The notes under the pieces are model-generated. The model saw nothing but the letters and a program-made list of their open reading frames with translations. It was not told the DNA's origin and did no database searches. A stretch of DNA of 64,000 nucleotides, taken from Clostridium sp. GTDB lineage: Bacteria > Bacillota > Clostridia > Clostridiales > Clostridiaceae. Below, in pieces: positions 14,110-31,832 of this stretch. How positions within the stretch are numbered: position 1 is the first letter of the stretch; each line of letters begins with the position of its first letter. The stretch spans positions 23,383 to 87,382 of the forward strand of contig NZ_JAJFUC010000044.1 of the NCBI RefSeq assembly GCF_021372645.1, in the 5' to 3' direction. Both the position numbers and the translations under genes were made by a program.

Positions 14110-14850
14110 ATGTCAGGACACTCAAAGTGGCATAACATTCAAGGAAAAAAAGGTAAGACAGATGCAAAAAGAGGTAAGATATTTACTAAAATAGGTAAAG
14201 AAATCGTTGTAGCTGTTAAAAATGGTGGACCTAGTCCCGATACAAATGCAAGACTTCGAGATGCAATTGCTAAAGCAAAAGCTGAAAATATGCCTAATGA
14301 TACTGTAATAAAAGCAATTAAAAAGGCATCTGGTGAATTGTCAACAGTTAACTACGAAAATATAGTTTATGAAGGTTATGGTCCTAGTGGAGTGGCTGTA
14401 ATAGTTGAAACTCTTACTGATAATAAAAATAGATCTGCAGGAAATGTAAGAAGTGCATTTACTAAAGGTGGAGGAAACATGGGAGCAGCTGGCTGTGTAG
14501 GATTCATGTTCCAAGAAAAAGGAGAAATCATCATTGAAAAGGATAATAAAGATGAAGATGAAATAATGATGATAGCCTTAGATGCTGGTGCAGAAGATTT
14601 CTCCGCAGATGAAGAAGAAGTATTTGTAGTAACTACAACTCCAGAAGACTTTGGAGCAGTTAGAGAAGCATTGGAAGCTGCAGGAATTGAATTCTTAGAA
14701 GCATCTGTTAAAAGGATTCCAGATACATATACAGAAATAAACGAAGCAGATGCTAAGAAGTTCCAAAAGATGTTAGATTTACTTGAAGATGATGATGACG
14801 TTCAAGAGGTTTATCATAATGCTGAATTCCCTGAAGGATGGAGTTTTTAG
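14110..14850 (+). CDS. yebC: YebC/PmpR-family protein, 3' end rebuilt by the integrated element
   Basis: YebC family protein of 246 residues, a normal length. It begins with the signature [25 protein letters not shown] and has [15 protein letters not shown] and the [14 protein letters not shown] stretch. YebC proteins act as DNA-binding regulators (PmpR type) or help ribosomes through proline-rich stalls. The last 90 bases before 14841 are repeated exactly at 31743-31832, where the downstream codons differ. The present gene ends EGWSF, whereas the copy beyond the element would end EGWDE. The C-terminus has therefore been exchanged by insertion without loss of the reading frame. AAGGAGG precedes the ATG. 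Confidence 0.95.
14752..14841 (+). repeat. attL: 90-bp direct repeat inside yebC
   Basis: Identical over 90 bases to 31743-31832; it differs at both flanks (14751 against 31742, 14842 against 31833). It covers the last ~30 codons of yebC. The strand-exchange core must lie inside it. Confidence 0.93.
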
Positions 14851-14857
14851 CTTCGCG

Positions 14858-14882
14858 AACCTACACTACGACTAGGTTTTTT
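14858..14882 (+). terminator. Element-supplied terminator after yebC
   Basis: AACCTA, 9-base loop, TAGGTT followed by TTTT. It is carried by the element just inside attL and replaces the native terminator, which is now at 31893. Confidence 0.6.
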
Positions 14883-14912
14883 GGAGTAGTTAAAATATGT
14901 AAAAGTATATTT

Positions 14913-14954
14913 GACTACGATGTACGTCTATTTTTAGTCTTCGACTATGATGTA
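14913..14954 (+). repeat. Pair of 12-bp direct repeats, possible integrase arm sites
   Basis: GACTACGATGTA at 14913 and GACTATGATGTA at 14943, 30 bp apart (about three helical turns), between attL and the integrase gene. Position and spacing fit arm-type recombinase sites; this is inference. Confidence 0.4.
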
Positions 14955-15005
14955 TATTGAAAAAGACAACTACTATTGAGTGAAATTAATAGGAGGTGTC
15001 TTTTT

Positions 15006-15932
15006 TTGTTATTAAAAGAATTATTAAAGGAATTTATTCTCGAATTGGAGATAAGGAATTATTCCAAAAGAACGTTAAAAAGTTATAGAAATAATAATTT
15101 GTTAATGTTCACTTATTTAGAAAAAGAATATGAAATTATAGAAATTGAAGAGGTGAAAACACCTCATATAAAAAGTTATATCAAGTTTTTAGAAAGACAA
15201 GGAAGAAAAACAACTTACATAAATGGAATCATAAAATGTTTTAGAGCCTTTTTTAAATATGTTGTTGATGAAGAAATTGTTTCATTAAATCCTATGGCAA
15301 GAGTTAGTTGGATTAGAGAAGGAAAAGTTATTATAAATACTTTCAATGATGAAGAAGTTTCAAAATTGATTAATGTTTTCAAAGGTAGAGATTATATTGA
15401 TATAAGAAATAAAACTATAATGGCATTTTTATTAGATACAGGTGTTAGAAATTTAGAATTATGTAACATAAGAAATATTGATGTAAATGAGAATAGTTTG
15501 ACCATTAAACAAGGAAAAGGAAGAAAAGATAGAAGAGTGGCTTTAAGTCCATATTTAAGAAAAATAATTATTAGATATATTAGATGTAAAGAGAGTTACT
15601 TTAAAAATAGGATAATGGACGAAAATACACCATTTTTCTTGTCTTATAGATTTAAACCTTTAACGGTAGAAGCCGTTGAAAGAGTAGTGCGATTATGTGG
15701 CAAAATGGCTAATATAAGAAAAGAAATAAGATGTAGTCCACATACTTGCCGTCATTATTTTGCACAGGCTCAACTTAGGAATGGATTAGATATTTATAGT
15801 TTATCTAGGTTATTAGGACATGAGGATATTGCCATAACTAAACGGTATTTGCAAGGATTGGAAGATGAAAATATTATAGAAATGAGCGTTAAAACAAGTC
15901 CGTTAATGAACTTGAATAAAATGAAAATCTAA
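15006..15932 (+). CDS. Tyrosine recombinase (integrase) of the element
   Basis: Site-specific recombinase that would insert and excise the element at yebC. It has a SAM-like N-terminal core-binding domain (LKEFILELEIRNYSKRTLKSYRNN) and a catalytic domain with all expected residues: Arg in TGVRNLEL, Lys in KQGKGRKDRRV, His-x-x-Arg in SPHTCRHYF, His in LLGHEDIAITKRY and the Tyr nucleophile there. It is close to XerC/XerD-type enzymes in length and lacks an AP2-type arm-binding domain. A TTG at 15006 is chosen because AGGAGGTG sits 7 bases before it; the frame is open further upstream to 14976 but without a ribosome site. The weak start codon may keep expression low. The gene is adjacent to attL, as usual. 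Confidence 0.92.
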   Translation: MLLKELLKEFILELEIRNYSKRTLKSYRNNNLLMFTYLEKEYEIIEIEEVKTPHIKSYIKFLERQGRKTTYINGIIKCFRAFFKYVVDEEIVSLNPMARVSWIREGKVIINTFNDEEVSKLINVFKGRDYIDIRNKTIMAFLLDTGVRNLELCNIRNIDVNENSLTIKQGKGRKDRRVALSPYLRKIIIRYIRCKESYFKNRIMDENTPFFLSYRFKPLTVEAVERVVRLCGKMANIRKEIRCSPHTCRHYFAQAQLRNGLDIYSLSRLLGHEDIAITKRYLQGLEDENIIEMSVKTSPLMNLNKMKI

Positions 15933-15994
15933 TGGATAATATAATTGAGTAAAATTGGAAAGTTGGTAAAAAAATAACTGTATGAGGTGATATT

Positions 15995-16735
15995 ATGTCA
16001 AGTTCAAATGCACAAGACAAATATTTTAGTTTTGCAATGGATACACAATTAAGACCTTTATTTGAAAACAAGTATTTTCTCTATCATTTTCTTTTCAAAC
16101 AATACGTGGAAGAGGAAATATTTTCATTAGAAAAGAATGATAAGAGGTTATTTAATTATTTGCAAGAGAATCAAATTTATGTTAATAACATAAATAAAGT
16201 TATTGAAAAATTGTTGAAAGAACGTTATAAGCTAGAAGGAATTGCAGATAATATTTTAGTGATTCTTGATTATCTAAAATGGAGTTATGGTATTGATGTA
16301 GATTATAATACTATTGATTTAAACAAGTATAAAAGAGAGCCTATAAAATATGAAAATTATGTAGTACCGATTAAAAGTTTAGGTACGTTAAGAAAGTTTT
16401 TGATAGAAAAATATAAGTGTTGTCAGCTTTGTGGAATAACTAAAGAAGATTTGTTAATACAAAGTCATTTAAAACCACAAAGTATTAGTAAAAAAGAAGG
16501 AAAAAAAGAGGAGATTTTTGATATTAATAATGTATTGTTATTATGCAATAGACATGATAAATTAATTGACAAAGGACTAATAACATTTACTGATGAAGGT
16601 GATATTAAGATATCTAAAGAATTAGATGAAGAAGATGTGAAAACATTAGGAATAAGTAATGATATAAAAGTGGACTTAAATGAAGAACAAAAGAAATACA
16701 TGAGATATCATCGTGAAAAGGTCTTTAAAAAATAG
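15995..16735 (+). CDS. HNH endonuclease, restriction-like
   Basis: Protein of 246 residues. The C-terminal half (about 125-220) is an HNH nuclease: CQLCG gives the first zinc knuckle, SHLKP the catalytic His, and NNVLLLCNRHDKLIDKGLITF the Asn and second His. The latter stretch is typical of restriction-type HNH domains rather than packaging HNH proteins next to terminases. The N-terminal ~125 residues are helical and not recognised; they may be a target-sensing domain. The start follows GAGGTGAT. It follows the integrase by 62 bases and precedes a terminator, in the slot where satellites often carry defence genes. A defence role is inference. Confidence 0.75.
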   Translation: MSSSNAQDKYFSFAMDTQLRPLFENKYFLYHFLFKQYVEEEIFSLEKNDKRLFNYLQENQIYVNNINKVIEKLLKERYKLEGIADNILVILDYLKWSYGIDVDYNTIDLNKYKREPIKYENYVVPIKSLGTLRKFLIEKYKCCQLCGITKEDLLIQSHLKPQSISKKEGKKEEIFDINNVLLLCNRHDKLIDKGLITFTDEGDIKISKELDEEDVKTLGISNDIKVDLNEEQKKYMRYHREKVFKK

Positions 16736-16791
16736 TGAGTAATATGTGACTAAGGTTTGAATTATATATGACAAAATATTGAATAAGATTA

Positions 16792-16821: not shown

Positions 16822-17095
16822 GCGTTTAAGCGTGGGTCACTTATACGGACGGTAGTATATACTATAGTATTACTATAGAGACTAGGGAGTTAGTACGGTT
16901 TTAAGGGTTGATTTAAGCCACTTTTTGAGTTGCGATAGGGGAGGGAATGAAATGAGCGTACCGTAGGGGTGAAAATTTTGGCGAATTTGAGGATACGTGA
17001 GAGTTCTCAAAATAGTCCAAAATGGTTCGGCATTTAATTTTTTTACACCATTAATTACTAGGCAAATAAGGCATTGTAGAAGTTTGCACTAATGG
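16822..17095. other. Noncoding lead-in to the 115-bp array
   Basis: No credible gene. It holds a short palindromic stretch around 16850-16880 (GTAGTATATACTATAGTA) and, from about 16993, a degenerate unit of the array. That unit shares AATAAGGCATTGTAGAAGTT with the third unit. Confidence 0.5.
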
Positions 17096-17797
17096 TACTT
17101 TAGGAGAGAAATTCAAAAAAATCGAAAAATAACGAAAATCGGATAAAAAAATTTTTATTACCACCCTCAAACCTAGTAATACCAATGGGTTTGAGGGTTT
17201 GTTAGTTTCCTACTTCAGGAGAGATGTTCAAAAAATCAAAAATAGGACAAAAATCGGATAAAAAGTTAAAATCGTATGGCTTAAAACATAGTAGAGGTAA
17301 GAGTTTGCGAGTTTTAAAATCTCGATACTTCAGGAGAGAAATTCAAAAAATCAAAAAATACGCAAAATAGTTCGGCAAATTTTATTTTGACACCTTTTAT
17401 TATGCGTAAAATAAGGCATTGTAGAAGTTACCACTATTCCTACTTCAGGAGAGAAACCCAAATATAAAAAATAGGTCAAAAAGGCTACGACTTTAATTTT
17501 TTTACACCATCTAAATCTAGTAATATGAATGGGGTTGGAGTCTGTCGCTATTAGTGCTTCAGGAGAGATGTTCAAAAAAATCATTTTTCGTCCCTTTTAT
17601 CGTTAAAACTTAAATTCTAATACCTCCTAAACGTAGTGATATCAATGGATTCGAGGGTTTAAGTTATCTGTGCTTCAGGAGAGGAATCGAAAAACTCAAA
17701 ATAGGTCAAAATTAGGATAAAAATATTTTTTTAACACCGTTTATTATTAGTAATATGAATGGTTATAGAAAATCGCTCTAATGGTACTTCAGGAGAG
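17096..17797. repeat. Seven-unit tandem array with ~115-bp period
   Basis: The block TACTTCAGGAGAG (variants TACTTTAGGAGAG, TGCTTCAGGAGAG) starts at 17096, 17211, 17326, 17441, 17555, 17671 and 17785. The spacings are 115, 115, 115, 114, 116 and 114. Each block is followed by an A-rich tract (often TTCAAAAAATCAAAAA), a T-rich tract ending in ACACC, and in most units a TAGTAATATGAATGG-like block; the rest varies. The first unit has a perfect hairpin (CCCTCAAACC at 17164, GGTTTGAGGG at 17188). No frame runs through, since 115 is not a multiple of three. Repeats are not identical, so it is not CRISPR. Function unknown: an array of protein sites on one helix face, or of small structured RNAs, would fit. 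Confidence 0.85.
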
Positions 17798-17875
17798 AAG
17801 ACTCTTACAATTTATAACCAAATCGTTACAAAATACATAATAAACATAAAAACAAATGAAAAAGGAAGTAATATT

Positions 17876-18058
17876 ATGGAAGAATTAAGAGAAAGATTGA
17901 GAGGTCATAAAAAGAAATATGGCACAAGTCTTGCATTTATAGGTAGAAATATTGGAATCCATAGATGTACATTATCACTATTTATAAATGATAAGAGGGA
18001 CTTACCATTGCCGATAGCTAAGAAACTAGACCAATACTTAAATAATTTTGATAACTAG
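17876..18058 (+). CDS. Small HTH protein (Cro-like)
   Basis: A 60-residue protein that is mostly a helix-turn-helix domain. YGTSLAFIGRNIGIHRCTLSLFINDKRDLPLPIAKKLDQYL gives the helix, turn, recognition helix and helix-4 pattern of XRE/Cro proteins. ATG 17876 is chosen because AAAAGGAAG precedes it; the frame is open upstream but would run into the repeat array. A terminator follows directly, so it is a single-gene unit whose leader would include the array. It may regulate the element's lysogeny or bind the array; both are guesses. Confidence 0.75.
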   Translation: MEELRERLRGHKKKYGTSLAFIGRNIGIHRCTLSLFINDKRDLPLPIAKKLDQYLNNFDN

Positions 18059-18427: not shown

Positions 18428-18901
18428 ATGGAATTAAGCGAATTAAATTTATCAACTGAACAGTTAAGTGGGGTACAAGCTATACTTCAAAGTGAAACGG
18501 ATAAAGTGAGAACTAAATACAACAAAGAAATCAAAGAATTAAAAGAAAAATTACCTGTTGAAAAGACAGAAGCTGAAATAGCTTTAGAGGAAAGATTGAA
18601 AGTTCTCGAAGATAAGGAAAAAGCTATTGCAAAACAAGAACAATTAAATAGTTTGAGTAAACAATTATCCGATAAAGGAATTAATGGTGAACTTGCAAAG
18701 TATCTAAATATTAGTGAAGACACTAATTTAGACGAGATATTTAAAATGATAGTTGGTGATGGTAATAACACTTATAAACCAAGTAATCATCAAAACTCTA
18801 ATGGTGTAGTTACAAAAGAACAATTCAATCAAATGAGTTATGCCGAAAGGGTAAGTTTATATAACGCTGATATTGAACTTTATAACGCATTAAGTAAATA
18901 G
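18428..18901 (+). CDS. Capsid scaffolding protein
   Basis: Phage head scaffold of 157 residues. The N-terminal ~85 residues are charged and strongly helical (KVRTKYNKEIKELKEKLPVEK onward), giving a coiled coil. A flexible Asn/Ser/Gly linker follows near 118-127. The C-terminus VVTKEQFNQMSYAERVSLY with ELYNAL is the family-typical capsid-binding tail. Scaffold directly before the major capsid gene is the usual order. GAAAGGAAGA precedes the ATG. A terminator lies between this gene and the capsid gene, which is unusual. Confidence 0.85.
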   Translation: MELSELNLSTEQLSGVQAILQSETDKVRTKYNKEIKELKEKLPVEKTEAEIALEERLKVLEDKEKAIAKQEQLNSLSKQLSDKGINGELAKYLNISEDTNLDEIFKMIVGDGNNTYKPSNHQNSNGVVTKEQFNQMSYAERVSLYNADIELYNALSK

Positions 18902-19866: not shown

Positions 19867-19910
19867 GTTACCTAAAGTAATAGAAATAAAATAGGAAAGG
19901 AATGAGAATT

Positions 19911-20159
19911 ATGACAATGAGGGAAAGAATAAGATACACCAGAGCCATTTATAACTTAACTCAACTTGATGTAGCTAAAGCGTTAGGGACAAGTAAACAA
20001 TACATCACACAAATAGAGAAGAATAGAAACTTAGTTAGTGATGAAAAATTAGAAGAGATTTACAAAATTACTGTTAAAATTGGGGAAGCCAATAAACAAG
20101 GAAGAATGGAAGACGTATTAGAAGACCTAATTAAAAATAGAAAAGAAGAACAAGAATAG
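19911..20159 (+). CDS. XRE-family HTH regulator
   Basis: A DNA-binding protein of 82 residues from the chosen start. Residues ~3-60 form a classical XRE helix-turn-helix (RERIRYTRAIYNLTQLDVAKALGTSKQYITQIEKNR). The C-terminus is acidic and helical (QGRMEDVLEDLIKNRKEEQE). Several ATGs are possible (19902, 19911, 19917); 19911 is chosen for its distance from GGAAAGG. It follows the capsid terminator and precedes the replication block, so it may control the replication/packaging genes. Confidence 0.8.
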   Translation: MTMRERIRYTRAIYNLTQLDVAKALGTSKQYITQIEKNRNLVSDEKLEEIYKITVKIGEANKQGRMEDVLEDLIKNRKEEQE

Positions 20160-20265: not shown

Positions 20266-21153
20266 ATGATGCATGAATTAAAAGAACTAATGCCTAAATG
20301 GTGCGAAGACAATAATACAAAGTATTCTCTATTACTAAGTGATGATATTGATTCGTTTATGTGTTCAATAATTGAAAAGGAATTATTTAATAGAGAAATA
20401 AACTATTTTTTAGATGTAAATTATGAAAAAGCTAATTGGAATAGCTATGGTAAACAAATGTTATATGGAACTAATGATAATTTGGATTGGAACAATATTA
20501 TAGGTTTGGATATGGCTCTTGAGGGAGAAATAAAATGTTGGGATAATCATGTTGTAAAAAAAGATAAGTCAGATAAAGTAAATCCTAATAGTGCAAACTT
20601 GAACGCTATTACTAATATATCATCTAGTAATTACACAGATAAATTTATAGTGAGTAGTTTTATAACTATGTTGAGTTATTATGATTATGATATTACCACA
20701 TGGGACAAAGACCAACTAGCTGTTTTATGTGCGATTGATGGGGTATATCACCCATTTATTAATCCAAGCTTTAAGGAAAAGGGAAGAAAGAACTTAGCTA
20801 TCTTAGAATATGAATTTTTAGCTGATTTCATAGAAGAGAATTTAAGTTACATTATTTATGTAGAAAATCAATTGAATTTGAAATACGGCAAGATATGGGT
20901 AAATGAAGAAGGATATTTAGAAACTAATATAGATTTATTAGGACTAGAATTAATATTTAGTGATATCTTTAAAACTTCATTTAATTTGTCAGATCTGCGA
21001 TTTAGAGAATTAAAAAGCTACAAAAGTAAGTATGTAAATTTTGAGGGTAAGAATAGTAAATACAATAAAGATATTTTAAATGTAAAAGATAGAATGATTA
21101 ATTTCGCTTTGACTTATAAATCAAAAGGAATTGTCAGTTATAACATGGATTAA
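20266..21153 (+). CDS. Divergent DHH-like phosphoesterase candidate
   Basis: Protein of 295 residues with no close family I can name. Its acidic motifs fall in the order of DHH-superfamily phosphoesterases: SDDIDS at 25-30 (motif I, Asp26/27/29), GLDMAL at 80-85 (motif II, Asp82), CWDNHV at 91-96 (motif III, DNH in place of DHH) and CAIDGV at 155-160 (motif IV, Asp158). The C-terminal 130 residues are not recognised. DHH proteins include RecJ exonucleases, nanoRNases and cyclic-dinucleotide hydrolases. In a satellite such an enzyme could serve replication or counter a nucleotide-signalling defence; both are inference. The ATG has no good ribosome site. It begins the replication block. Confidence 0.5.
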   Translation: MMHELKELMPKWCEDNNTKYSLLLSDDIDSFMCSIIEKELFNREINYFLDVNYEKANWNSYGKQMLYGTNDNLDWNNIIGLDMALEGEIKCWDNHVVKKDKSDKVNPNSANLNAITNISSSNYTDKFIVSSFITMLSYYDYDITTWDKDQLAVLCAIDGVYHPFINPSFKEKGRKNLAILEYEFLADFIEENLSYIIYVENQLNLKYGKIWVNEEGYLETNIDLLGLELIFSDIFKTSFNLSDLRFRELKSYKSKYVNFEGKNSKYNKDILNVKDRMINFALTYKSKGIVSYNMD

Positions 21154-21191: not shown

Positions 21192-21896
21192 ATGATAATA
21201 ATTAAGTTTAGAGAGAACAAGAAACATCGAGGAGATGGGAAGTATTATATTTATGAAAGAAAATCATTTAGAGTTGATGGGAAGGTAAAGAAGAAAGATA
21301 TATATTTGAAGAGTATTGACCAAAAACAGTTTCATGCAGAAGATTGCCTTATTTATACAAGACGAGATGGAACACTATTCCATTTTGAGTTTCCAGAAGA
21401 ACTAAAGGAAGAGTTGTATAAAGCCGTAGAAAGACGAAAAGTGAAAGAACAAAATAAAATCCAAGAGAGATTAAATTGGTTATCCGATGAAGGGTTCATC
21501 ACAGAGGATAATTACAAAATATATGAAGCTGGAATAGAAGGCAAGTTATGGACTAATAAGGAAGAGTTCTACAAAGATGAATTATTCAATTCTAAAGTCG
21601 TAATGTCTAATCTAAAATATTTCCGTAGAGGGTGTAGAAATAAAGAAGAAGACGATATAAGACATGAAGCTATAATGGAAGAATATAGAAGAATAATAGA
21701 ACAAAAACAACTAGAACAAGATATTGCCGATAAACGTATGGCTATTGATAAAGAACAAGCTTCTATCAAAGAAGAAAAAGCTAAGATTGAAGAAATGGAA
21801 GAAGGACTTGAAAGACTTATGAAAAAGAGTGAGTTATGTGAAAGAATCGACAAAGTGATTATAATGATAGAAGAATTGGAGAAAATGTGTAAATAG
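21192..21896 (+). CDS. Uncharacterised coiled-coil protein
   Basis: Protein of 234 residues, not recognised. Residues 1-70 are basic and beta-like (KFRENKKHRGDGKYYIYERKS), 75-150 mixed, and 155-232 a long Glu/Lys-rich coiled coil (QDIADKRMAIDKEQASIKEE onward). GACGAGGAAATTAGA before its ATG recurs almost exactly before the gene at 22101. Its stop overlaps the first base of the inverted-repeat cluster at 21897. The position between a DHH-like protein and a Rep-like protein suggests a replication or DNA-handling role, but no motif proves it. Confidence 0.6.
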   Translation: MIIIKFRENKKHRGDGKYYIYERKSFRVDGKVKKKDIYLKSIDQKQFHAEDCLIYTRRDGTLFHFEFPEELKEELYKAVERRKVKEQNKIQERLNWLSDEGFITEDNYKIYEAGIEGKLWTNKEEFYKDELFNSKVVMSNLKYFRRGCRNKEEDDIRHEAIMEEYRRIIEQKQLEQDIADKRMAIDKEQASIKEEKAKIEEMEEGLERLMKKSELCERIDKVIIMIEELEKMCK

Positions 21897-22100: not shown

Positions 22101-22301
22101 ATGAATAAAGAAATTACTTATGAAAATAGAATAGTTAGGTCATATATAGATGCAGACAAATTAATGAAGTTGGGGTTTATATGTTTAGGGATAGAAACCA
22201 ATATACAAGATAGTACCAAATTAATATTTTGGTTCAAAAATACTAGAGAATTAAACAAGGCTTTACAAGAAATCAGTAATAGCTTTAAAACTAAAGAATA
22301 G
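22101..22301 (+). CDS. Small uncharacterised protein
   Basis: A 66-residue protein with ribosome site GACGAGGG. The sequence (ENRIVRSYIDADKLMKLGFICLGIE) suggests a small alpha/beta fold without membrane segments or cysteine clusters. It precedes the Rep-like gene by 18 bases and is probably cotranscribed with it. Not recognised. Confidence 0.6.
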   Translation: MNKEITYENRIVRSYIDADKLMKLGFICLGIETNIQDSTKLIFWFKNTRELNKALQEISNSFKTKE

Positions 22302-23424: not shown

Positions 23425-23670
23425 ATGTTAAATATAGGAATAATGGTTTTAATATGTGGAATTTTACTTGAAGAAATGAGGATAGCTAATTATAAGGATA
23501 AGCTTATCCAAAGTGAGGAAAATAGAAAACGCAACAATGAATTTATGGAAATACAAGAGAGGATAATGGTTGAATCAGCTAAGTTGGGTGAAAGAATGAA
23601 GATATCAAGTGAACAAAGACAAAGAACTTATGAAGAAATAATGGAGGTGATAGAATGTCAAGAAAAGTAG
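23425..23670 (+). CDS. Small membrane-anchored protein
   Basis: An 81-residue protein. Residues 3-16 (NIGIMVLICGILLE) form a short hydrophobic segment, followed by a charged helix to the C-terminus with no predicted domain. Its end overlaps the small-terminase start by 16 bases, so the two are translationally linked. AGGAGTGA precedes the ATG. Function unknown. Confidence 0.6.
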   Translation: MLNIGIMVLICGILLEEMRIANYKDKLIQSEENRKRNNEFMEIQERIMVESAKLGERMKISSEQRQRTYEEIMEVIECQEK

Positions 23671-24044
23671 TTAATTTACAAGATAATGTACAGGATATTT
23701 TAGAAAATAAAAAGCTTTGGTATTTTATCAAATGGTATATAAATGGTCAAAAGCTAGAGGAATGGAAAAGTGTTCAAACTTCAATTGGAATATCTCAAAC
23801 TAGTGATTGGGCTGTTAAAACATATTTTGAAAGAGAAGATGTTCAAAGAGCCATGATTGAGATTACTAAGTTAAACAAGGATTTTAATTTGGTTCAGATA
23901 TATAATGCAATGTTAAAGCTTGCATTAGAAGGTGATAAGAGTGCAGCTGATTGGATTATGAAGTTTAGTGGAAGTGATTTCTTCGAAGCTAAATCATCTG
24001 CATTAGATGATTTGATTGGAGGATTGAACTTAGATGATGAATAG
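23655..24044 (+). CDS. terS: Small terminase subunit
   Basis: DNA-recognition subunit of the packaging motor, 129 residues. Helical N-terminus with an HTH-like part (YINGQKLEEWKSVQTSIGISQTSDWAVKTYF), a central oligomerisation part and the acidic C-terminus SALDDLIGGLNLDDE. Identification rests on position directly before and overlapping the large terminase, size and overall pattern. It would recognise the element's own pac or cos site. Confidence 0.75.
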   Translation: MSRKVVNLQDNVQDILENKKLWYFIKWYINGQKLEEWKSVQTSIGISQTSDWAVKTYFEREDVQRAMIEITKLNKDFNLVQIYNAMLKLALEGDKSAADWIMKFSGSDFFEAKSSALDDLIGGLNLDDE

Positions 24045-25599
24045 AGACGAGAAATTTATGAGGGTGTGGAATAATCCTGTATTATTTATACAAAACTTTT
24101 TAAAGATTACTGATAAGAATGGTAAGCTAGTGCCATTTATTTTAAATCCAATGCAAAAAGATTTCATTAAGAATTTAGATAGTTACAATATAATATTAAA
24201 GGCTCGTCAGGGTGGAATGAGCGTGGCTATATGTGGACTAGCTATTTACTATGCAGTAACTATTCCTAATTCAACTTGCATGATGTTATCTCATAATGAT
24301 GAATCTACAAGGGCAATATTCAATAAGCTTAAAGCTATTTATAATAGTTTGCCAAGTGGTATTAAACCTAAATTAGTAAAAAATAACAGAGCCGAACTGC
24401 AATTGCAAAATGGTTCTATAATATCATGTTCAACTATGGGGCATACAGATAAATCAAGAGGTAACACCTTAAAATTATGTCATATATCTGAATTTGCATT
24501 TGTTCAATCAGATGTAGCTACAAAACAATTATTGGCTATTGAACAAGCTATTCAAGCTAATGGTCACTTAATCATAGAATCAACGGCTAATGGATTAAAC
24601 CATTATAATATCTTGTATAACAAATCTAAGAATAATGAAAACTCATATAAAGGATTCTTTTACAATTATATTGATACATCATGTATGTTCTTAGATGAAT
24701 ATGAGAAGTTCAAGAAGATATTTAATAATATTAATGGTCATGAATTTGGCGAAAAGGATTTAACGGAAGAAGAAAGAGAATTATTAAAAATTGAAGGAAT
24801 GACTTTAGATATTATATGTTGGAGAAGGCTCAAGATTCAAAATAGTTCAATTGACCAATTTAATCAAGAGTTTCCATTAACAGATGCAATGGCATTTATC
24901 ACAAGTGGTAATAGCGTGTTTGATAATGAAAGGATAACCAATGTATTAAGTGTATTACAATTGCAAAAAGAAAAGTTTATAAAGAAAACAGATATTGAGG
25001 ATTTACCAAGTATTTTAAAACAATACTATGGTAGGTCTTTTTTTATGTACCAAAAACCTAAAGTTGGGGAAAAATATTACATTGGTGTGGATAGTTCGGA
25101 GGGTGTTGGTAAAGACTCAAGTACGTGTGTTGTTCTTAACAAAGATGGTGAAGAGGTTGCAATGTTCAAGGATAACAAGATTAAACCTTATGTGTTCGCA
25201 GAGTTTGTAAATGAGTTAGGTCATTATTATAACAAGGCTCTTTTAGTTGTGGAAAAAGCTAGTGGAGGGCATAGCGTTATTGAGAGATTGAGATACACAT
25301 TCAAATACATGAACATGAGTAAATACAAATCTTATGATGAATTTATGAAGGTCAGATACACAGTTGGATTTGATACTAATTCAAAAACCAAAGGTATTAT
25401 AATCAACGACCTTAGAGAAATGTTTGAAACAAATCAAATATTATTACATTCGGCTGAAACATTGGAAGAAATGAAGGTGTTTGAGGTTAAAGATAACGGC
25501 TCTATGGGTGCAATGGGAGGATTCCATGATGATTTAGTTATTGCAACTGCATTAGCTTTAGCTGGTTTGAAGAGTGGTCAGAATTATAAATGGTTATAG
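24034..25599 (+). CDS. terL: Large terminase subunit
   Basis: ATPase-nuclease that pumps DNA into the prohead, 521 residues, full length. The ATPase domain has LKARQGGMS (residues 55-63, Walker A variant of terminases), followed by MMLSHNDESTRAIF, the LCHISEFAF stretch for Walker B and LIIESTANGLN as the coupling motif. The nuclease domain starts with YIGVDSSEGVGKDSST (metal-binding Asp near residue 352) and ends with the acidic GGFHDDLVIATALAL motif. This belongs to the Terminase_6/SPP1-like group. The start codon ATGATG overlaps the small-subunit stop. Confidence 0.93.
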   Translation: MMNRDEKFMRVWNNPVLFIQNFLKITDKNGKLVPFILNPMQKDFIKNLDSYNIILKARQGGMSVAICGLAIYYAVTIPNSTCMMLSHNDESTRAIFNKLKAIYNSLPSGIKPKLVKNNRAELQLQNGSIISCSTMGHTDKSRGNTLKLCHISEFAFVQSDVATKQLLAIEQAIQANGHLIIESTANGLNHYNILYNKSKNNENSYKGFFYNYIDTSCMFLDEYEKFKKIFNNINGHEFGEKDLTEEERELLKIEGMTLDIICWRRLKIQNSSIDQFNQEFPLTDAMAFITSGNSVFDNERITNVLSVLQLQKEKFIKKTDIEDLPSILKQYYGRSFFMYQKPKVGEKYYIGVDSSEGVGKDSSTCVVLNKDGEEVAMFKDNKIKPYVFAEFVNELGHYYNKALLVVEKASGGHSVIERLRYTFKYMNMSKYKSYDEFMKVRYTVGFDTNSKTKGIIINDLREMFETNQILLHSAETLEEMKVFEVKDNGSMGAMGGFHDDLVIATALALAGLKSGQNYKWL

Positions 25600-25665: not shown

Positions 25666-26958
25666 ATGAAAAAAATAGAAGAATACATTAAAAATGAATA
25701 TACAAACGATATATTTTGGTTTACAAAAGAGGTGGAAAAACCTCATAACACAACTAGAATTGCAAAGGTGAGGACTTTAAAGAATTATCTACATGGAACA
25801 CATAAAGTATTAGGTAGACAAGATACTAAGTATAAGGATAAGGAATTTAAGGTTAAGAAGTTAATACTTAATAATGCAAAGACTATATTAAATTTTCATT
25901 CAACTTATTTATTAGGGAATAGTGTGAGTTTAACAGGTTCAGAAGCTTTAGTTAAAGAACTACAAGAAATATATAACTATGGTGGATTTAATGATATTGA
26001 TTTTGAACTAATGGATAAGCTAACTAAATACGGAGATTCATATGAATATATTTATAAAGATGGAGATAGAATTACATCTAAGGTCATAGATAATAGTTGC
26101 AGTTATCCTGTTTATAATGATTCGCTTGAATATATTGCATTCATTGAACATTGGACTAACGCAGAAAACAAGAATTATTGGAATGTCTATTATGAGGATA
26201 AAGTTCAAGAATGGAATGATAATGGTGATACTATTACTATGACAGGAGAATATAAGAATGTTAGTGGCTTACCATTACATTATAAAGGTTTGAATGATTG
26301 GGATAGTAGATATGGCGAAGGATTACTTGAAAATATAATACCAGTTCTTGATGAAATAGAAGATATACTTTCAAAAATGGGAGATAGTATTTATACATTA
26401 TCTTTAAATCCATTATTATTAACTCAAGGACAGGCAATTGAAGGAAGTATTAGTAATGATAGTGTTGGCTTTAATGTGGCTCTGGAGAATGGAGCTGACA
26501 TGAAGTATGTAACGGCTACTATGGATTACTCTACTATTAAATATTATCTTGATACATTACAGAATGAATTGAATATTATCTCTTATATGCCTAGTATATT
26601 AGGTGGAAGTGGTAATATAGCTAATGTTAGTGAAGTATCATTAAAGATGTTATATTCTCTTGCAGATGTTAATGCAATGATTAATGAGAAAGTAATGAGA
26701 AGAGGATTCAATGAAAGGTTTAATGTTATTAGAAAGCTTATAGGTCAAGAGACTAAGAGCGAGTATGTTAATGTTACATTTAATTATAGTAGACCTCAAA
26801 ATGCAAGTGAGTTACTTGATAACTTAAAGAAACAATTTGATATGAACGCTATTAGCTTACAATCTATCATTGAGAAGTCACCTGTATCAGACGATGTAGG
26901 TATGGAGTTAGAGAGGTTAAAGAAGAGCGAGAAGGTTGATGAACCTGATGCAGCTTAA
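25666..26958 (+). CDS. Portal protein (SPP1 gp6-like)
   Basis: Portal vertex protein of 430 residues through which DNA enters the head. SPP1-type signatures include TILNFHSTYLLGNSVSL, YGDSYEYIYKD, LPLHYKGLNDWDSRYGEGLLENIIPVLDEIEDILS and LGGSGNIANVSEVSLKMLYSLADVNAMINEK. Length is slightly short of SPP1 gp6 (~500), but the start and end look complete. It follows the terminase by 66 bases. No head-morphogenesis (gp7) gene follows; instead a terminator and ~0.9 kb of noncoding DNA come next. Confidence 0.9.
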   Translation: MKKIEEYIKNEYTNDIFWFTKEVEKPHNTTRIAKVRTLKNYLHGTHKVLGRQDTKYKDKEFKVKKLILNNAKTILNFHSTYLLGNSVSLTGSEALVKELQEIYNYGGFNDIDFELMDKLTKYGDSYEYIYKDGDRITSKVIDNSCSYPVYNDSLEYIAFIEHWTNAENKNYWNVYYEDKVQEWNDNGDTITMTGEYKNVSGLPLHYKGLNDWDSRYGEGLLENIIPVLDEIEDILSKMGDSIYTLSLNPLLLTQGQAIEGSISNDSVGFNVALENGADMKYVTATMDYSTIKYYLDTLQNELNIISYMPSILGGSGNIANVSEVSLKMLYSLADVNAMINEKVMRRGFNERFNVIRKLIGQETKSEYVNVTFNYSRPQNASELLDNLKKQFDMNAISLQSIIEKSPVSDDVGMELERLKKSEKVDEPDAA

Positions 26959-27146
26959 AAGGTGACGAATAGTGAGTTAGATGCGACAGCGATGTCGTAT
27001 TTTCTTTGTGATGGTGGGGGAGTGAGTAAATAGGAGTATGAGAGAGTATGATGGAGGAAGGTAATAGTTAGAAAAGACAAGGACAGAATGGTTAGTGAGG
27101 ACAAGAAGATAATGGCATATTGAGAAGGGTAATTGTTGAAGGAGAT

Positions 27147-27184
27147 ATGTGGATAGTATAGTCTTGTTATCTACACATTTTTTT
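27147..27184 (+). terminator. Terminator of the terminase-portal operon
   Basis: ATGTGGATA pairs with TATCTACACAT (two-base bulge), followed by seven T residues. Confidence 0.7.
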
Positions 27185-27791
27185 ATAACAAAGTATAATT
27201 GAAATATGACCCTTTTAAAAACAAAGCGATTATCTTCATCTTTTCATCATGTTCTTGAAGTCTATCAATGATTTTGAGGGGTGGAGATACTACCAAGTAT
27301 GGATAATCCAAGTTTGGTACACAACAAGATTATAAGTATCTGTATGAAAAAGGCTATATTTCCATAATAATGTGTCATATTTGGTGTGATTTGGAGTACA
27401 TTTAGGTGATTTAATGGTCATAATTGGCATTAAAATTTAGGTTTTAAGGTTCTTAGTGATGCATAATACTGCATTATGCACCGTTAAGGCTATAATGAAC
27501 GCTATTTATTGATGTATAAGTATGCAAAAAGACTAACTATGTGAGAAGATAAGGGTGTTGATGTTAGAAGTGGCACTAATACTAGGATTGAAGAGGATTG
27601 GTATTCGTTTTATAAGGATGTATTCATCATAATATTACGCAAAACAGTTCGGGAAATTTTTATTTAACGAAATTATTGTGGTATTTTATGGTATAAAGTG
27701 AATTATATACGTTAGATGTGTGTAATAATGCAATTACCCCATTTTCAGAAATAGTCGGCTTACAGAGTAAAAAACCACCCACCGAAAAAAT

Positions 27792-27820
27792 TTGAGAATA
27801 CAGGAATATTATGGTACAAT
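27792..27820 (+). promoter_or_regulatory. SigA-type promoter of the 27853 gene
   Basis: TTGAGA at 27792, 17-base spacer, TACAAT at 27815, 33 bases before the start codon. Confidence 0.65.
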
Positions 27821-27852
27821 CCAGTTACAACGAAGTTTAAGGGGGAAATGGT

Positions 27853-28281
27853 ATGAACAATAGTTCAATGATGGCACTCTATACAGGAGTAATAATATTA
27901 GTAATATGCATATCTATATGGGTTATATGGCAAAGTAGTAAAGTAGATAAGGCAATGCCAAAGAAAGAAATTTATGATGATTTATTAAGCGAATTAAGGG
28001 AAACCCCTAATAATGCTTATTTAAGAGAAAAGGCACTATTGGCAGGAAGAGATTATTATGGGACTCTTAGATTAGATGGACACTTAACCATTTATGATGA
28101 ACAAGCTATTACTAATGATATTAATGTAGCTGTAGGTAATGGGAATCCAATTGAGCCACATAATAATAGTAACAATGTTTATAAAGATATCGAACAATTA
28201 GCGAATTTGAAAGATAAAGGTATTTTGACGGAAGAAGAGTTTAATGAAAAGAAAAGAGTATTATTAGAAAAAATTAATTAA
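27853..28281 (+). CDS. Membrane protein with C-terminal SHOCT domain
   Basis: Protein of 142 residues. A hydrophobic helix (MMALYTGVIILVICISIWVIW, ~5-25) is followed by a charged middle part. The C-terminal DIEQLANLKDKGILTEEEFNEKKRVLLEKI is a SHOCT motif, a short helical oligomerisation module seen in many phage and bacterial proteins. It has its own promoter and terminator, so it is a separate unit inside the element. It could be a lysogenic-conversion or superinfection protein; no evidence decides. Confidence 0.75.
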   Translation: MNNSSMMALYTGVIILVICISIWVIWQSSKVDKAMPKKEIYDDLLSELRETPNNAYLREKALLAGRDYYGTLRLDGHLTIYDEQAITNDINVAVGNGNPIEPHNNSNNVYKDIEQLANLKDKGILTEEEFNEKKRVLLEKIN

Positions 28282-28354: not shown

Positions 28355-28519
28355 ATGAAAGATTACACAGAACTTTATAGAAAAGAATATGAAGCGAAAC
28401 AAAGAGCCCAAGAAATAATATATGGTTCAGGAAGAGATATATACAAAGAAAACGATGAACTCAAAAAAAGAATTAAAGAACTTGAAGAAGAACTTGAATC
28501 TTTAAAACAAATGAAATAG
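28355..28519 (+). CDS. Short coiled-coil protein
   Basis: A 54-residue protein from an ATG preceded by GAAAGGAATGG. The N-terminal half is polar (YTELYRKEYEAKQRAQEII), and the C-terminal half is a leucine-heptad helix (ENDELKKRIKELEEELESL). It resembles small head-gene-cluster proteins in Firmicutes phages. Starts and ends fit its neighbours, with 16 bases to the next gene. Function unknown. Confidence 0.55.
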   Translation: MKDYTELYRKEYEAKQRAQEIIYGSGRDIYKENDELKKRIKELEEELESLKQMK

Positions 28520-28535
28520 AAAGGAAGATGCACAA

Positions 28536-28886
28536 ATGACTAATAATTTACAAAGATTAAAACTTGAATTAAACAACAAAGAATATTTCACAGACGAGGA
28601 TTACACTTTATTATTAGATGAAAATGGTTTGGTTGCAACATCTCCTTATGTGAAGAGTGATAATGAAATCAAACTATTAGAAACAGTAATATCTGTATTA
28701 GAAGCGTTATCAAATGATGTGGATTTAATGAGAAAGATAGATTCTAAAGACTTATTATCAACTGATGAAGCTAAATCATCAATAGCCGATAGAATATATG
28801 ATTTGAATAAAAGAATTATGACATTAAAACAAAAAAAGGATGAATATATATCATCAAATATAAGACCTATATTTTTTACACGATAA
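28536..28886 (+). CDS. Possible head-tail connector/adaptor
   Basis: A 116-residue, mostly helical protein (LQRLKLELNNKEYFTDEDYTLLLDENGL; KLLETVISVLEALSNDVDLM). The N-terminal pattern of a short helix, Tyr-Thr/Asp turn and second helix resembles gp6-type head-tail adaptors, and it sits 12 bases before the large structural gene. If correct, it is the only neck protein of the element and the likely docking point for a helper tail. Assignment is tentative. Confidence 0.45.
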   Translation: MTNNLQRLKLELNNKEYFTDEDYTLLLDENGLVATSPYVKSDNEIKLLETVISVLEALSNDVDLMRKIDSKDLLSTDEAKSSIADRIYDLNKRIMTLKQKKDEYISSNIRPIFFTR

Positions 28887-28898
28887 GGAGGTGGAAAA

Positions 28899-31316
28899 AT
28901 GATAAATACAATAGAATATGCAATGAATTTAGAGATTCAGATGAATGGAGTTTCTGGTCAAATAGATGGAGTATCTACTAAGTTCGTATTAAAACCTTGT
29001 AGTAATGGCTCTGAAAACCATTATGACTTGAAGACAATTATATCTAAGACACCATTTAAACAAGGTTCTCTTATAACTATTGGTACTGATATCTATTTAG
29101 TTGTAGATATTGAGGAACAATTCGCTCAAACCGTTTATCACAAAGGAACTATAAGAAAATGTGATAAGTTTATGGCTTCTACTGATGAACAATATCTTAA
29201 TAGATATAACCTTAATGGATTTGTTGACAAAGATACATCAACAATAGTGGCTACTGATTATTTCCTTGAAGAAAACTCTTATATTAATGCAACTATTCCA
29301 TTAAATCAATATTCACCTAGTTTTACTAATTTATTGTATAAAAACTATGCATATTTGGTAACTAGTTCAGATAATACAAAAGAAGGAATAAGAATAGTTA
29401 CGGCTAAGAAAACAGCTTATGGTTATAGTGAAGACCATTATACTATAGTGTTATCAACTATTAGTTCTCAAAATCATATTGGAGATACAATTCAATTAGT
29501 TGCAACTTGTAAAAAGAATAATATTGTAATTGATAATCCTGTGATAATGTATTCATCTAGTGATGAAAGCGTTGCAACGGTATCAGCTAGTGGTTTAATT
29601 ACTTGTATTGCAAATGGTAATATCAAAGTAACTTGTACTTATGAAGGTATATCTACTGAATATTCTTTAGAAGTTAAAACTGATAGCTATGAAATATCAT
29701 TGAATAGTGCAAGTGGAGATTTACAAGAAGGAACAACTTATCAATTAAGTCCTGTTTGTAAGAAAAACAATGTTATAGTTGAAAATCCATTAGTAACTTA
29801 TTTATCAAGTGATGAAACTATTGCAACAGTATCAACTACTGGTTTAGTATCGGCTATTAAGAATGGTTCATGTGTCATAACTTGTACTTATATGGGTGTA
29901 AGTGCAACTTATGCATTAAACGTTAAGCTAGGAGATATATATACAATTGAATCTAATGTGACTTCTATAATAATAGAAAGAACTAAGACTATTCAATTAA
30001 ATCCAACAGTTAAATTAAATGGTACGGTAATAGAAAATCCAACATTAAGTTATAGCGTTGGTGATACTTCGATTGCAACTTGTAACAATGGACTTGTAAC
30101 TGGAACTGGAGTTGGTTCAACTTCTATTAACATTGATTATGAGGGTAAAGCTAACTACACAATAAATGTTACTATATCTGAATTGCAAGTGGTTTATACA
30201 ATTAATGGAGTAGATTCATTCCACCAATTAGATGATGAAGTATTTACTATTAGTCCGTTAAGAACTTGTACTTTCTATATAAGTGACTTTGATTCGCAAA
30301 ATATAGCCAACATTATTTCTGATGATGGTAATGGTACTTGTACAATTTATGGTCATTCAACATTATCTGCAAATACGTTCACTTTACAAGCTAAAGATAA
30401 CTTAGGAAACGTAATAGCTAGTAAGAATATAAATGTTGATAATGGCACTTCAACTTATACATTAGATGTTGATAGTTCTCAATTATCATTAAATTTAGAT
30501 GAAACATTTACACATCAAATAGTGGCTACTTGTAAGAGAAATGGTGTTGTTATGACTAATCCATTAGTGACTTATTCATCAACCAATACAAATGTGGCAA
30601 CGGTATCTGCAAGTGGTTTAATTACTGGTGTTAGTCTTGGCTCTACTAGTATTAAGGCTACTTATAGAGGTGTTACTAAAACTATAAACACAGTTGTAGC
30701 TAGTAACGCTCCAGTAGTACAAGTGCCTTTCCATTTAGAAGCTACTTCTGCAATTTCATCATTTTCAAAAGGGCAACAAGTAGTATTTAAAGTTTATAAA
30801 GATACTGGTGGCTTATATCCTAATACCGATAAATCATTAACTTGTACATTAACAAGTGCAAATGGTACAAATAATTGGTCAGTACCATCTATTAATTATG
30901 GTTATGCAGATCATTATGAAGTGTATGTTACAAATATTAATTGTGCAAGTAGTGGAGATTATCAATATCAATTAACTACTACGGATTCAACAGGCTATAC
31001 TGTTACACAATCATTCTTCAATAAATATTCTACTCCATCTCCTAATTTGAGAGAATTTATTGATAATGTAGAGGTTCATAATCCTACTATAAATATGACC
31101 GTTGGACAAGTTAAATCTATTAAAGTTTATTGTAATGATTGGGGAAATTTAATCAACAATTGGTTTGTAAGTGGTTCTGACGTTGTAACATTTGATAGAA
31201 GTAAATTAACTTATTCAACTAATGATGTAAAAATTACGGCATTAAAAGCTGGAACATCAGTTGTTAAGTTACAAAGTGATACTCTTATAGAAACAATAAC
31301 TATAAATGTAGTATAA
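28899..31316 (+). CDS. Large virion protein with Ig-like (BIG2) repeats
   Basis: Protein of 805 residues without a signal peptide. Residues 1-~115 form a separate beta domain (QGSLITIGTDIYLVVDIEEQ, VYHKGTIRKCDKF) reminiscent of phage head-closure or neck proteins. From ~175 several BIG2 units follow, each with the pattern ...ATCKKNN-NP-YSSSDESVATVSASGLIT...YEG/MGV (about 178-258, 262-343, 345-425, 512-598). Then come unassigned beta domains and a last BIG2-like unit at ~735-805. Ig domains are common on phage heads and tails, where they bind cell-surface sugars. As the largest gene and the last structural one, it may be a head fibre, neck or adaptor protein. AAGGAGGTGG precedes the ATG. Confidence 0.7.
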   Translation: MINTIEYAMNLEIQMNGVSGQIDGVSTKFVLKPCSNGSENHYDLKTIISKTPFKQGSLITIGTDIYLVVDIEEQFAQTVYHKGTIRKCDKFMASTDEQYLNRYNLNGFVDKDTSTIVATDYFLEENSYINATIPLNQYSPSFTNLLYKNYAYLVTSSDNTKEGIRIVTAKKTAYGYSEDHYTIVLSTISSQNHIGDTIQLVATCKKNNIVIDNPVIMYSSSDESVATVSASGLITCIANGNIKVTCTYEGISTEYSLEVKTDSYEISLNSASGDLQEGTTYQLSPVCKKNNVIVENPLVTYLSSDETIATVSTTGLVSAIKNGSCVITCTYMGVSATYALNVKLGDIYTIESNVTSIIIERTKTIQLNPTVKLNGTVIENPTLSYSVGDTSIATCNNGLVTGTGVGSTSINIDYEGKANYTINVTISELQVVYTINGVDSFHQLDDEVFTISPLRTCTFYISDFDSQNIANIISDDGNGTCTIYGHSTLSANTFTLQAKDNLGNVIASKNINVDNGTSTYTLDVDSSQLSLNLDETFTHQIVATCKRNGVVMTNPLVTYSSTNTNVATVSASGLITGVSLGSTSIKATYRGVTKTINTVVASNAPVVQVPFHLEATSAISSFSKGQQVVFKVYKDTGGLYPNTDKSLTCTLTSANGTNNWSVPSINYGYADHYEVYVTNINCASSGDYQYQLTTTDSTGYTVTQSFFNKYSTPSPNLREFIDNVEVHNPTINMTVGQVKSIKVYCNDWGNLINNWFVSGSDVVTFDRSKLTYSTNDVKITALKAGTSVVKLQSDTLIETITINVV

Positions 31317-31355
31317 ATTTAATGCCCAAATATTATAAGAAAGGAGGTGTTCATT

Positions 31356-31586
31356 ATGGAACAAATGATAACTGTAATACAAAACTTTGGATTCCCAGTA
31401 GCTTGTTGTATAGCTATGGCTTATTTCATTTATATCATGTGGGGAAGAATGAACTCAACATTAGATAAAATTACAGAGACTAACAATCAACTAGTTTTGA
31501 CTAATCAATCTTTAATATCTAGTATCAATTCTAAGGTAGATACTATAGAAGAAAAAGTAGACAAGATTGCAAATAAAATTGGATAG
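31356..31586 (+). CDS. Small membrane protein, YvrJ/BhlA holin-like
   Basis: A 76-residue protein. The N-terminus (MEQMITVIQNFGFPVACCIAMAYFIYIMW) has one membrane helix preceded by the NFGFPVA turn typical of YvrJ/UviB-type small proteins. The C-terminus is a coiled coil (LDKITETNNQLVLTNQSLI; VDTIEEKVDKIANKI). Such proteins are annotated as holins or bacteriocin-associated proteins. ATG 31356 is chosen because AAAGGAGGTG lies 8-10 bases before it. No endolysin gene is next to it. Confidence 0.65.
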   Translation: MEQMITVIQNFGFPVACCIAMAYFIYIMWGRMNSTLDKITETNNQLVLTNQSLISSINSKVDTIEEKVDKIANKIG

Positions 31587-31623
31587 TATTTCCATTGACA
31601 TACAATTAGGGAAGGTATACAGT

Positions 31624-31734
31624 GTGATTATGATATACAAAGCTTTGATGATGGTTTTTGCCATGTGTTGGATGATGATGTATGTCATAAAAATAATTAT
31701 GAATAAAAATCGCTCAATAGTAGTGCGAAGCTAG
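31624..31734 (+). CDS. Very small Met-rich membrane peptide
   Basis: A 36-residue frame starting with GTG (or ATG at 31630) after AGGGAAGG. One membrane helix rich in methionine ([20 protein letters not shown]) is followed by a basic tail ([10 protein letters not shown]). It lies 37 bases after the YvrJ-like gene and 9 bases before attR, so it is the last gene of the element. It could be a second holin-like peptide. Confidence 0.45.
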
Positions 31735-31742
31735 GTAAGTCG

Positions 31743-31832
31743 GCTAAGAAGTTCCAAAAGATGTTAGATTTACTTGAAGATGATGATGACGTTCAAGAGG
31801 TTTATCATAATGCTGAATTCCCTGAAGGATGG
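31743..31832 (+). repeat. attR: 90-bp copy of the yebC 3' end
   Basis: Perfect repeat of 14752-14841. Beyond it the reading continues GATGAATAG, giving the presumed native yebC ending EGWDE. No ribosome site or start is present, so this copy is not expressed as protein. Confidence 0.93.

Follow-up and report, generated by a model that had tools for sequence, protein, structure and literature searches.

Phage satellites that build heads of their own and rely on another phage for tails alone are known from a few bacterial groups. Here we ask whether a mobile element of about 17 kb in a Clostridium sp. genome (RefSeq assembly GCF_021372645.1; 3.12 Mb in 105 contigs, 93.5% complete) is one of them. 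The element lies at positions 14752-31832 of a stretch of 64,000 nucleotides of contig NZ_JAJFUC010000044.1 (the window, to which all positions refer) and is integrated at the 3' end of yebC. An original prediction, made from the open reading frames (ORFs) of this stretch, had described it as a capsid-encoding phage satellite with intact-looking frames and without tail or lysis genes, which would fit a capsid-forming phage-inducible chromosomal island (PICI). We find that a capsid-forming, tail-borrowing phage satellite is the likely explanation. Judged from its genes, the element would be a new clostridial variant of such satellites, whose borrowing of tails we infer.

Element bounds, head genes and the search for a tail

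The bases at 14752-14841 and 31743-31832 are identical (repeat offset 16,991 bp), and since the repeat is 90 bp long and exact, a chance origin was rejected. The left copy closes yebC as ...EGWSF*, the right copy holds the GATGAATAG (...WDE*) end. The element thus re-creates the end of yebC, and the gene stays whole.

14110..14850, +: yebC, host target gene, 3' end supplied by the element (ORF list; YebC relatives in other genomes)
14752..14841, +: attL, the yebC 3' end as an exact direct repeat of 90 bp (repeat comparison)
31743..31832, +: attR, second 90-bp copy, carrying the GATGAATAG yebC end (repeat comparison)

The distance from yebC to the prepilin-peptidase gene is 17.5 kb here. Of 68 searched genomes of the genus, the host's among them, 10 have both genes on one contig at a distance of 0.9-4.3 kb (G022, G030, G031, G040, G021, G049, G066, G025, G036 and G055); judged by distance alone, the site therefore looks empty in these ten.

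All assigned genes of the element are on the + strand. Their order is integrase, HNH, a repeat array, a first small helix-turn-helix (HTH) protein (HTH1), scaffold, capsid, a second one (HTH2), the conserved protein SDD, a replication zone (234-aa, 67-aa, U66, Rep and 81-aa proteins), small and large terminase (TerS, TerL), portal, an ORF-poor stretch, SHOCT, a 54-aa protein, U116, BIG2 and a BhlA-like protein. Scanning 20 window proteins against Pfam and PHROGs, together with profile alignment, identified the head and packaging genes:

18428..18901, +: scaffolding protein (PF14265 8.5e-7; phrog_172 2.3e-8; hhalign 97% to phage scaffolds)
18952..19827, +: major capsid protein (phrog_544 1.9e-30; PDB 9m66 Gp6 4.8e-22; hhalign 100%)
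23655..24044, +: TerS, by position and family conservation (best match phrog_37769, E 0.045, not significant)
24034..25599, +: TerL (PF17289 2.6e-9; phrog_2 7e-36)
25666..26958, +: SPP1-type portal protein (PF05133 3.3e-62)

Repeats and profiles hence bear out the predicted 17-kb element in yebC with integrase, Rep-like protein, scaffold, capsid, TerL and portal, and TerS by its position. No head maturation protease was found in the scans of the 20 proteins, phrog_530 matching the scaffold at E 0.016 only.

Tape measure, baseplate and endolysin families gave no significant match among these proteins, and neither a tail tube nor a lysis enzyme or cell-wall hydrolase was recognisable. To this extent the predicted absence of tail and lysis genes stands; it has to be qualified for the late genes, where several tail-labelled PHROG matches fall in immunoglobulin (Ig)-bearing stretches of BIG2 and the last gene is BhlA/holin-like.

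28536..28886, +: U116, conserved 116-aa protein, a putative head-tail adaptor from its place alone
28899..31316, +: BIG2, 805 aa, conserved N-terminal domain and Big_2 Ig repeats (PF02368 1.6e-21; phrog_16444 5.7e-41)
31347..31586, +: BhlA/holin-like protein, 79 aa, last gene (phrog_9829 1.6e-14; phrog_4898 holin 0.0015)

Weak tail-labelled matches were further obtained for the 234-aa protein (phrog_19394, E 0.065) and the 54-aa coiled-coil protein (phrog_5834, E 0.048). A holin-like gene may be present, though without a lysis enzyme; PF10960 occurs in two of 66 accessory proteins of relatives and is above its cut-off in a relative. BIG2 would serve in head closure or in decoration and adhesion. 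The original prediction had allowed at most one neck candidate; instead two conserved late proteins, U116 and the N-terminal domain of BIG2 (BIG2-N), could be neck parts. Profiles of both gave chance-level matches only against PDB sequences, and tblastn against 50,697 phage records gave no match at E 0.01.

A tail hidden in the unassigned + strand ORFs was rejected. With U116, BIG2 and the assigned genes set aside, the 234-aa, SDD and SHOCT proteins are the only ones longer than 120 aa, and none has a significant tail match, so that the profile search proposed with the prediction disclosed no significant hidden tail gene in the window. Since PHROGs detected tape measures in larger cousins of the element, and a minor tail protein as well, these profiles can see tails in this family.

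A clostridial family with head-less and tape-measure relatives

Relatives of the window TerL occur in IMG/VR contigs, in C. weizhouense and C. cibarium, both listed under the same genus as the host, and in further genomes; the C. cibarium TerL is 66% identical. Among 225 genomes of the order, SDD was matched in 15, U116 in 23 (one marginal, E 6e-4) and the capsid profile in 22, the weakest six capsid matches having E values of 6e-18 to 1e-21. Eight elements of 16.3-20.9 kb, the window one included, are bounded by att repeats; G113, with a 17-bp repeat only, was left out of this count.

Window element: att 90 bp, 16,991 bp, yebC
G026 (C. cibarium): att 54 bp, 17,001 bp, yebC
G069: att 37+27 bp, 16,743 bp, yebC
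G085 (C. weizhouense): att 88 bp, 16,334 bp, end of a Spo0A-like response regulator gene (by eye)
G008: att 137 bp, 20,449 bp, tRNA-like site (by eye)
G177: att 60 bp, 19,766 bp, tRNA-like site (by eye)
G179: att 61 bp, 20,877 bp, tRNA-like site (by eye; chosen among several long repeats)
G136: att 73 bp, 20,729 bp, tRNA-like site (by eye)

All eight carry scaffold, capsid, HTH2, SDD, TerS, TerL, portal, U116 and BIG2 in one order; in G069 an insertion that carries transposase genes interrupts the portal gene. The yebC target, predicted to be an oddity, is no such thing, being used by at least two more members and by a head-less island (G074). Leaving out core genes, ORFs below 60 aa and opposite-strand ORFs below 100 aa, the other seven elements encode 77 accessory proteins, of which 66 were scanned and 11 small HTH proteins left out. 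The best 25 of 74 PHROGs and the best 25 of 33 Pfam families matched comprise replication initiators, integrases, transposases, HTH, BhlA/XhlA and similar families, and a full-table scan of ten larger accessory proteins without family yielded no tail family.

The ratio of nonsynonymous to synonymous substitution rates (dN/dS) was 0.08-0.10 for TerL, 0.15-0.17 for portal, 0.12-0.25 for capsid, 0.14-0.25 for U116, 0.19-0.40 for scaffold, 0.25-0.30 for SDD and 0.37-0.76 for BIG2-N; these pairwise values (versus L009, L008 or G085) are rough because dS, at 0.57-2.5 and mostly above 1, is near saturation. The intact att sites, the conserved gene set and dN/dS below 1 agree with the predicted intactness of the frames, and support the placement of the window element in a conserved clostridial lineage rather than among decayed prophages.

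The head-less island of G074 (L212 1530-20000 and L213 1-2855; repeat offset 23,357 bp) lies likewise in yebC. Its integrase, U66 and Rep are 67%, 71% and 75% identical to those of the window, with 77-78% nucleotide identity over the yebC-integrase and U66-Rep stretches, and it has no match to the window head genes at E 1e-3. The integration-replication backbone consequently occurs in elements that have the head module and in one that lacks it. In the interval from Rep to the second yebC end lie a gene for a protein of 1,053 aa that matches ThsA/SIR2 (1.2e-38) and genes without assignment. Another of its proteins matches Cas12f/Cas12u models and is TnpB-like by eye. Rep itself was found in the host (G000) and G074 and not in G026, G069, G085, G022 or G030; the carriers G026, G069 and G085 have other genes in its place, some with replication-type matches in PHROGs.

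Six larger cousins (G143, G145, G156, G160, G107 and G191) all encode related TerL, portal, U116 and BIG2, and four of them the scaffold, capsid and HTH2 of this family. Tape measures of the cousins span 1,590-2,778 aa. Those of G143, G145 and G148, which belong to one genus, have 2,362-2,778 aa, with PF10145, NlpC/P60 and SLT domains in the two scanned; those of G160, G156, G107 and G191 have 1,590-1,714 aa (PF10145) and are accompanied by a neck-like protein of 138-140 aa, which in G160 matches the connector family phrog_5 (1.8e-4; hhalign not significant). G156 further encodes a minor tail protein of 1,223 aa (phrog_6211, 4e-127 for the part scanned). Upstream of the head genes, G110, G143, G145, G148, G160 and G107 carry a protein of about 900-1,121 aa (phrog_8308 in two scanned), whose distant relatives include phage proteins labelled RNA-dependent RNA polymerase (E 2e-6 to 6e-7) and for which we use the label YonO-like. 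An Alp-like protein is found in some larger cousins. A 175-aa protein of the cousins reads as a chaperone by eye. No tail tube was recognised in the part of the cousins' proteins that was scanned. The eight att-bounded elements are without any match to the tape-measure, neck-like, minor-tail, chaperone-like, Alp or polymerase-like proteins of the cousins.

Long tape-measure elements without a recognised tail tube:
G143: L138 8535-15623
G148: L142 3784-12120
G145: L139-L140

G148 encodes SDD, tape measure and polymerase-like protein, and in the 33 kb of it that were searched scaffold, capsid, terminase, portal, U116 and BIG2 were all unmatched. The elements of G145 (about 41 kb) and G148 (about 46 kb) both lie in a UvrD-like helicase gene (bounds by eye).

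A TerL tree of 34 rows of at least 450 aa, from which the split TerL of L012 and L017 and the partial G153 were excluded, places the window TerL in a clade of 13 rows (support 85/99; eight rows are partial contigs). Five att-bounded tailless elements fall in this clade, and no tape-measure member was seen there. In a neighbouring clade G136, without tape measure, is sister to the tape-measure element of G145 (100/99), which implies that the tape measure was gained or lost more than once. The concern, voiced with the original prediction, that the same genes might sit inside a larger prophage applies at the level of the family; in the window's own TerL clade, 8 of its 13 rows being partial contigs, no tape-measure member was seen.

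Known satellites, a possible helper and rival explanations

Two phage-satellite traits, site-specific integration with att repeats and integrase and, by its recognisable genes, an incomplete virion gene set, appear in the element, as do the capsid, portal, TerL and, by position and conservation, TerS expected of capsid-forming PICIs (cf-PICIs). According to the portions of the literature cited, cf-PICIs (Alqurainy et al. 2023) are likewise chromosomal islands of similar size with their own capsid, portal and terminase and no tails; they encode capsid, protease, portal, connectors, terminase and HNH (PMC10690885), have a mean size of 14 kb and, in the available text, a host list without clostridia (PMC10803314), and their capsids fall into three clades (PMC11389934). 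An AlpA-type regulator is described for phage-inducible chromosomal minimalist islands (PICMIs; PMC10803314). The window element differs from cf-PICIs in several respects. An AlpA-type regulator is a PICI feature, whereas the element shows neither such a regulator (no AlpA family among the 20 window proteins at E 0.1, only HTH_3-type proteins) nor a head protease. Scaffold and capsid precede the replication genes, apart from TerS-TerL-portal, and there are extra conserved SDD, U116 and Ig-domain proteins and a clostridial host. For two further cf-PICI features, an HNH endonuclease in the packaging module and head-tail connectors, the element offers an HNH_2 protein beside the integrase and, in connector-like places, U116 and BIG2-N, whose profile comparisons were not significant. 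Membership in the cf-PICIs was rejected since the protease and AlpA features were not found and the gene order differs, the comparison being with published descriptions of cf-PICIs. What holds of the predicted capsid-forming PICI is a capsid-encoding mobile element without recognisable tail genes.

The Streptomyces satellites MulchRoom (OQ784832, 14.8 kb) and MiniFlayer (OQ357865, 17.4 kb), which the cited part of one report calls unrelated head-making satellites (PMC10690885), have a closely similar set of parts, with TerS, TerL, portal, scaffold, capsid and adaptor; MulchRoom additionally has stopper, integrase and HTH and is annotated without tail genes. They differ in a contiguous TerS-TerL-portal-scaffold-capsid block, terminal repeats and virulent helpers. 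In comparison with them hhalign gave 87.5% for capsid, 9.3% for TerL and 0.4% for portal, and the best hmmsearch E values, in a set of 17 proteins, were 6e-6, 8e-5 and 7e-4, respectively; the similarity is distant, and close membership was rejected. Staphylococcus phage 37 (Phietavirus-type late module) has a related scaffold and capsid (28% identity), the same TerS-TerL-portal and scaffold-capsid blocks and a DNA-binding gene after the capsid gene. In phage 37, however, a minor head protein follows the portal, and the module goes on to adaptor, closure, neck, terminator, tube, chaperone and tape measure, a run missing or unrecognised in the window element. The larger clostridial cousins share TerL, portal, U116 and BIG2 but are longer and have a tape measure. 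The window element thus probably follows the same logic as cf-PICIs and MulchRoom in a separate lineage. A search of open-licence literature for clostridial satellites that make heads, for tape measures in satellites and for elements integrated in yebC, judged on titles and abstract openings, showed no description of this family.

A possible tail donor is the prophage region of host contig 25 (18-75 kb; L215, L217, L218). Its tape-measure gene is in pieces on either side of an HNH-type gene; the region also encodes a protein of 2,826 aa homologous to the minor tail protein of G156 and, by eye, an amidase. PF10145 is matched three times in the host genome, which shows no second SPP1-type portal and no PF04860 portal. 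Comparison of the element with 57 kb of host sequence yielded one 27-bp near-match only.

We favour a satellite because of the 90-bp att repeats, the sites judged empty elsewhere, the core conserved in eight elements without tail genes, dN/dS below 1, the G074 backbone without head genes, the precedent of the isolated satellite MulchRoom and the tail-bearing prophage on contig 25. A helper phage would enter or be induced, upon which the element would excise, replicate, build its own heads and pack its own DNA via its own portal. U116 and BIG2 would close the head in a putative neck function, the closed heads would dock onto helper-made tails, and the helper would lyse the cell.

Several observations weigh against a satellite. 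Ig stretches of BIG2 match families named major tail protein (phrog_28902 1.3e-7, phrog_3575 0.008). With reference sets of the adaptors, stoppers, neck, terminator, tube and chaperone of four phages, hhalign of U116 and BIG2-N against known adaptors and stoppers was not significant, while the positive controls scaffold and capsid reached 97% and 100%; the 175-aa and neck-like proteins of the larger cousins were not significant against these sets either. The tape-measure cousins show that the family can be more phage-like, and the accessory-protein scan covers the best 25 of 74 PHROG and best 25 of 33 Pfam families. There is no co-occurrence signal, a PF10145 tape measure being present in 5 of 11 genomes with tailless-type elements versus 102 of 214 others, and the one-contig genome G069 is without any PF10145 match. 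C. weizhouense YB-6 and C. cibarium Sa3CVN1 likewise show no PF10145 tape measure. Finally, helper, excision, packaging, transfer and tail borrowing are deduced from gene content.

The main rival explanation is a very small temperate phage, sufficient in itself, whose tail is short or unusual. In such a phage U116 would be the adaptor, BIG2 a nozzle, tube or Ig-type receptor binder, and the holin-like protein would help release. BIG2 with its Ig repeats is conserved, its N-terminal domain changes fast as in a receptor-facing part, its Ig stretches carry the major-tail matches, a BhlA-like gene ends the element, and several carriers show no PF10145 tape measure. We nevertheless consider such a phage unlikely: no lysis enzyme or cell-wall hydrolase was found among the 20 window proteins, U116 and BIG2-N are without match in the phage records at E 0.01, the cousins combine both proteins with a long tape measure, for which a stub tail has no use, and the head-less island has the same backbone.

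That the element is what is left of a larger tailed prophage after loss of the tail and lysis genes is suggested by the six cousins in which tape measures accompany related TerL, portal, U116 and BIG2, and by the interleaving of tailless and tape-measure forms on the TerL tree (G136 beside G145). Such a remnant is nonetheless very improbable, given intact frames and att sites, dN/dS below 1 and the same tailless set in the five att-bounded elements of the window's TerL clade, including C. cibarium. Simple decay of this prophage copy was rejected on the intact frames, selection and conserved set; an ancient reductive origin from a tailed prophage may lie behind the family. Least credible is a head-only gene-transfer agent or interference device whose heads bind helper tails at the helper's cost and not for self-spread, for although tailless heads would titrate helper tails and the sibling island has a SIR2/ThsA-type protein, the integrase, att sites, Rep-like protein, own terminase and occurrence at several integration sites in different genera fit self-spread.

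Returning to a capsid-forming, tail-borrowing satellite, we may speculate, with considerable doubt, that one backbone and one head module interchange to give defence islands, tailless satellites and tape-measure elements apparently without tube, the last of which would respecify the length of the stolen helper tail; by titles and abstract openings, the open-licence literature offered no precedent for a satellite supplying its own tape measure for a stolen tail. A clostridial lineage with its own layout, a head-less sibling and tape-measure cousins would throw light on the origin and evolution of such satellites and on the neck proteins by which a head can take up the tail of a different phage. 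With C. weizhouense and C. cibarium as named carriers, the family is open to experiment.

Remaining genes, repeat array and flanking region

The other features of the element are as follows:

14976..15932, +: tyrosine integrase (PF00589 2e-27; phrog_1 8e-44)
15995..16735, +: HNH endonuclease-type protein (PF13391 HNH_2 1.5e-10)
17083..17800, +: non-coding array with seven copies of a CTTCAGGAGAGA-type motif at a spacing of about 115 bp (motif search)
17759..18058, +: HTH1 (PF01381 E 0.019, under cut-off; same-place relatives in several members)
19902..20159, +: HTH2, after the capsid gene throughout the family (PF01381 2.3e-8)
20266..21153, +: SDD, conserved SDDIDS...DNHV protein (family alignment; invariant Asp/His pattern)
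21192..21896, +: 234-aa protein of the replication zone (ORF list, Pfam/PHROGs scans)
22101..22301, +: U66, small DUF5659-like protein, common to the G074 island (PF18903 E 4.6e-4, under cut-off)
22320..23162, +: Rep, replication-initiator-like, HTH_36-like (PF13730 E 0.005, under cut-off)
23425..23670, +: 81-aa protein, relative in G069, no family match in the Pfam/PHROGs scans
26959..27852: stretch without + strand ORFs of at least 40 aa; relatives have variable genes between portal and U116
27853..28281, +: SHOCT-domain protein, variable cargo (PF09851 1.9e-9)
28355..28519, +: small coiled-coil-like 54-aa protein (weak coiled-coil matches)

Five positions or pairs of SDD are invariant in 19 sequences (D27, D29, D82, N94-H95 and D158), a pattern reminiscent of metal-dependent DHH-type phosphoesterases. 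Besides the eight att-bounded elements, some larger cousins encode SDD. The SDD profile had no significant match among PDB sequences, nor did tblastn match it in the 50,697 phage records at E 0.01.

The window contains eight matches to the CTTCAGGAGAGA-type motif versus 0.17 expected, seven of them within 17083-17800, in the roughly 1 kb at 16.7-17.8 kb. Neither the other regions compared, nor the stretches from contigs 25 and 98, nor the island of G074 showed this array, which is possibly an origin or a set of regulator sites; single copies of the motif occur in G113 and G080. In C. cibarium the integrase-scaffold gap of the element contains another motif (CCAATAGGGAGA), present five times. 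Both arrays are possible replication or regulator sites that diverge fast.

Wide distances between yebC and the prepilin-peptidase gene are also seen in G041 (17.6 kb), G047 (11.5 kb) and G020 (39.8 kb); in the remaining genus genomes the two genes are on different contigs or far apart, or one was not found. The gap of G041 (contig 1, 4861183-4878758) has no match to the TerL, U116 or capsid of this family and perhaps holds a different element at the same place. An Rfam search gave no match within the element at E 1. Just beyond attR it located a c-di-GMP-II riboswitch (32088-32170, +, 70.7 bits), which precedes prepilin-peptidase and pilus-type ATPase genes, both named by eye.

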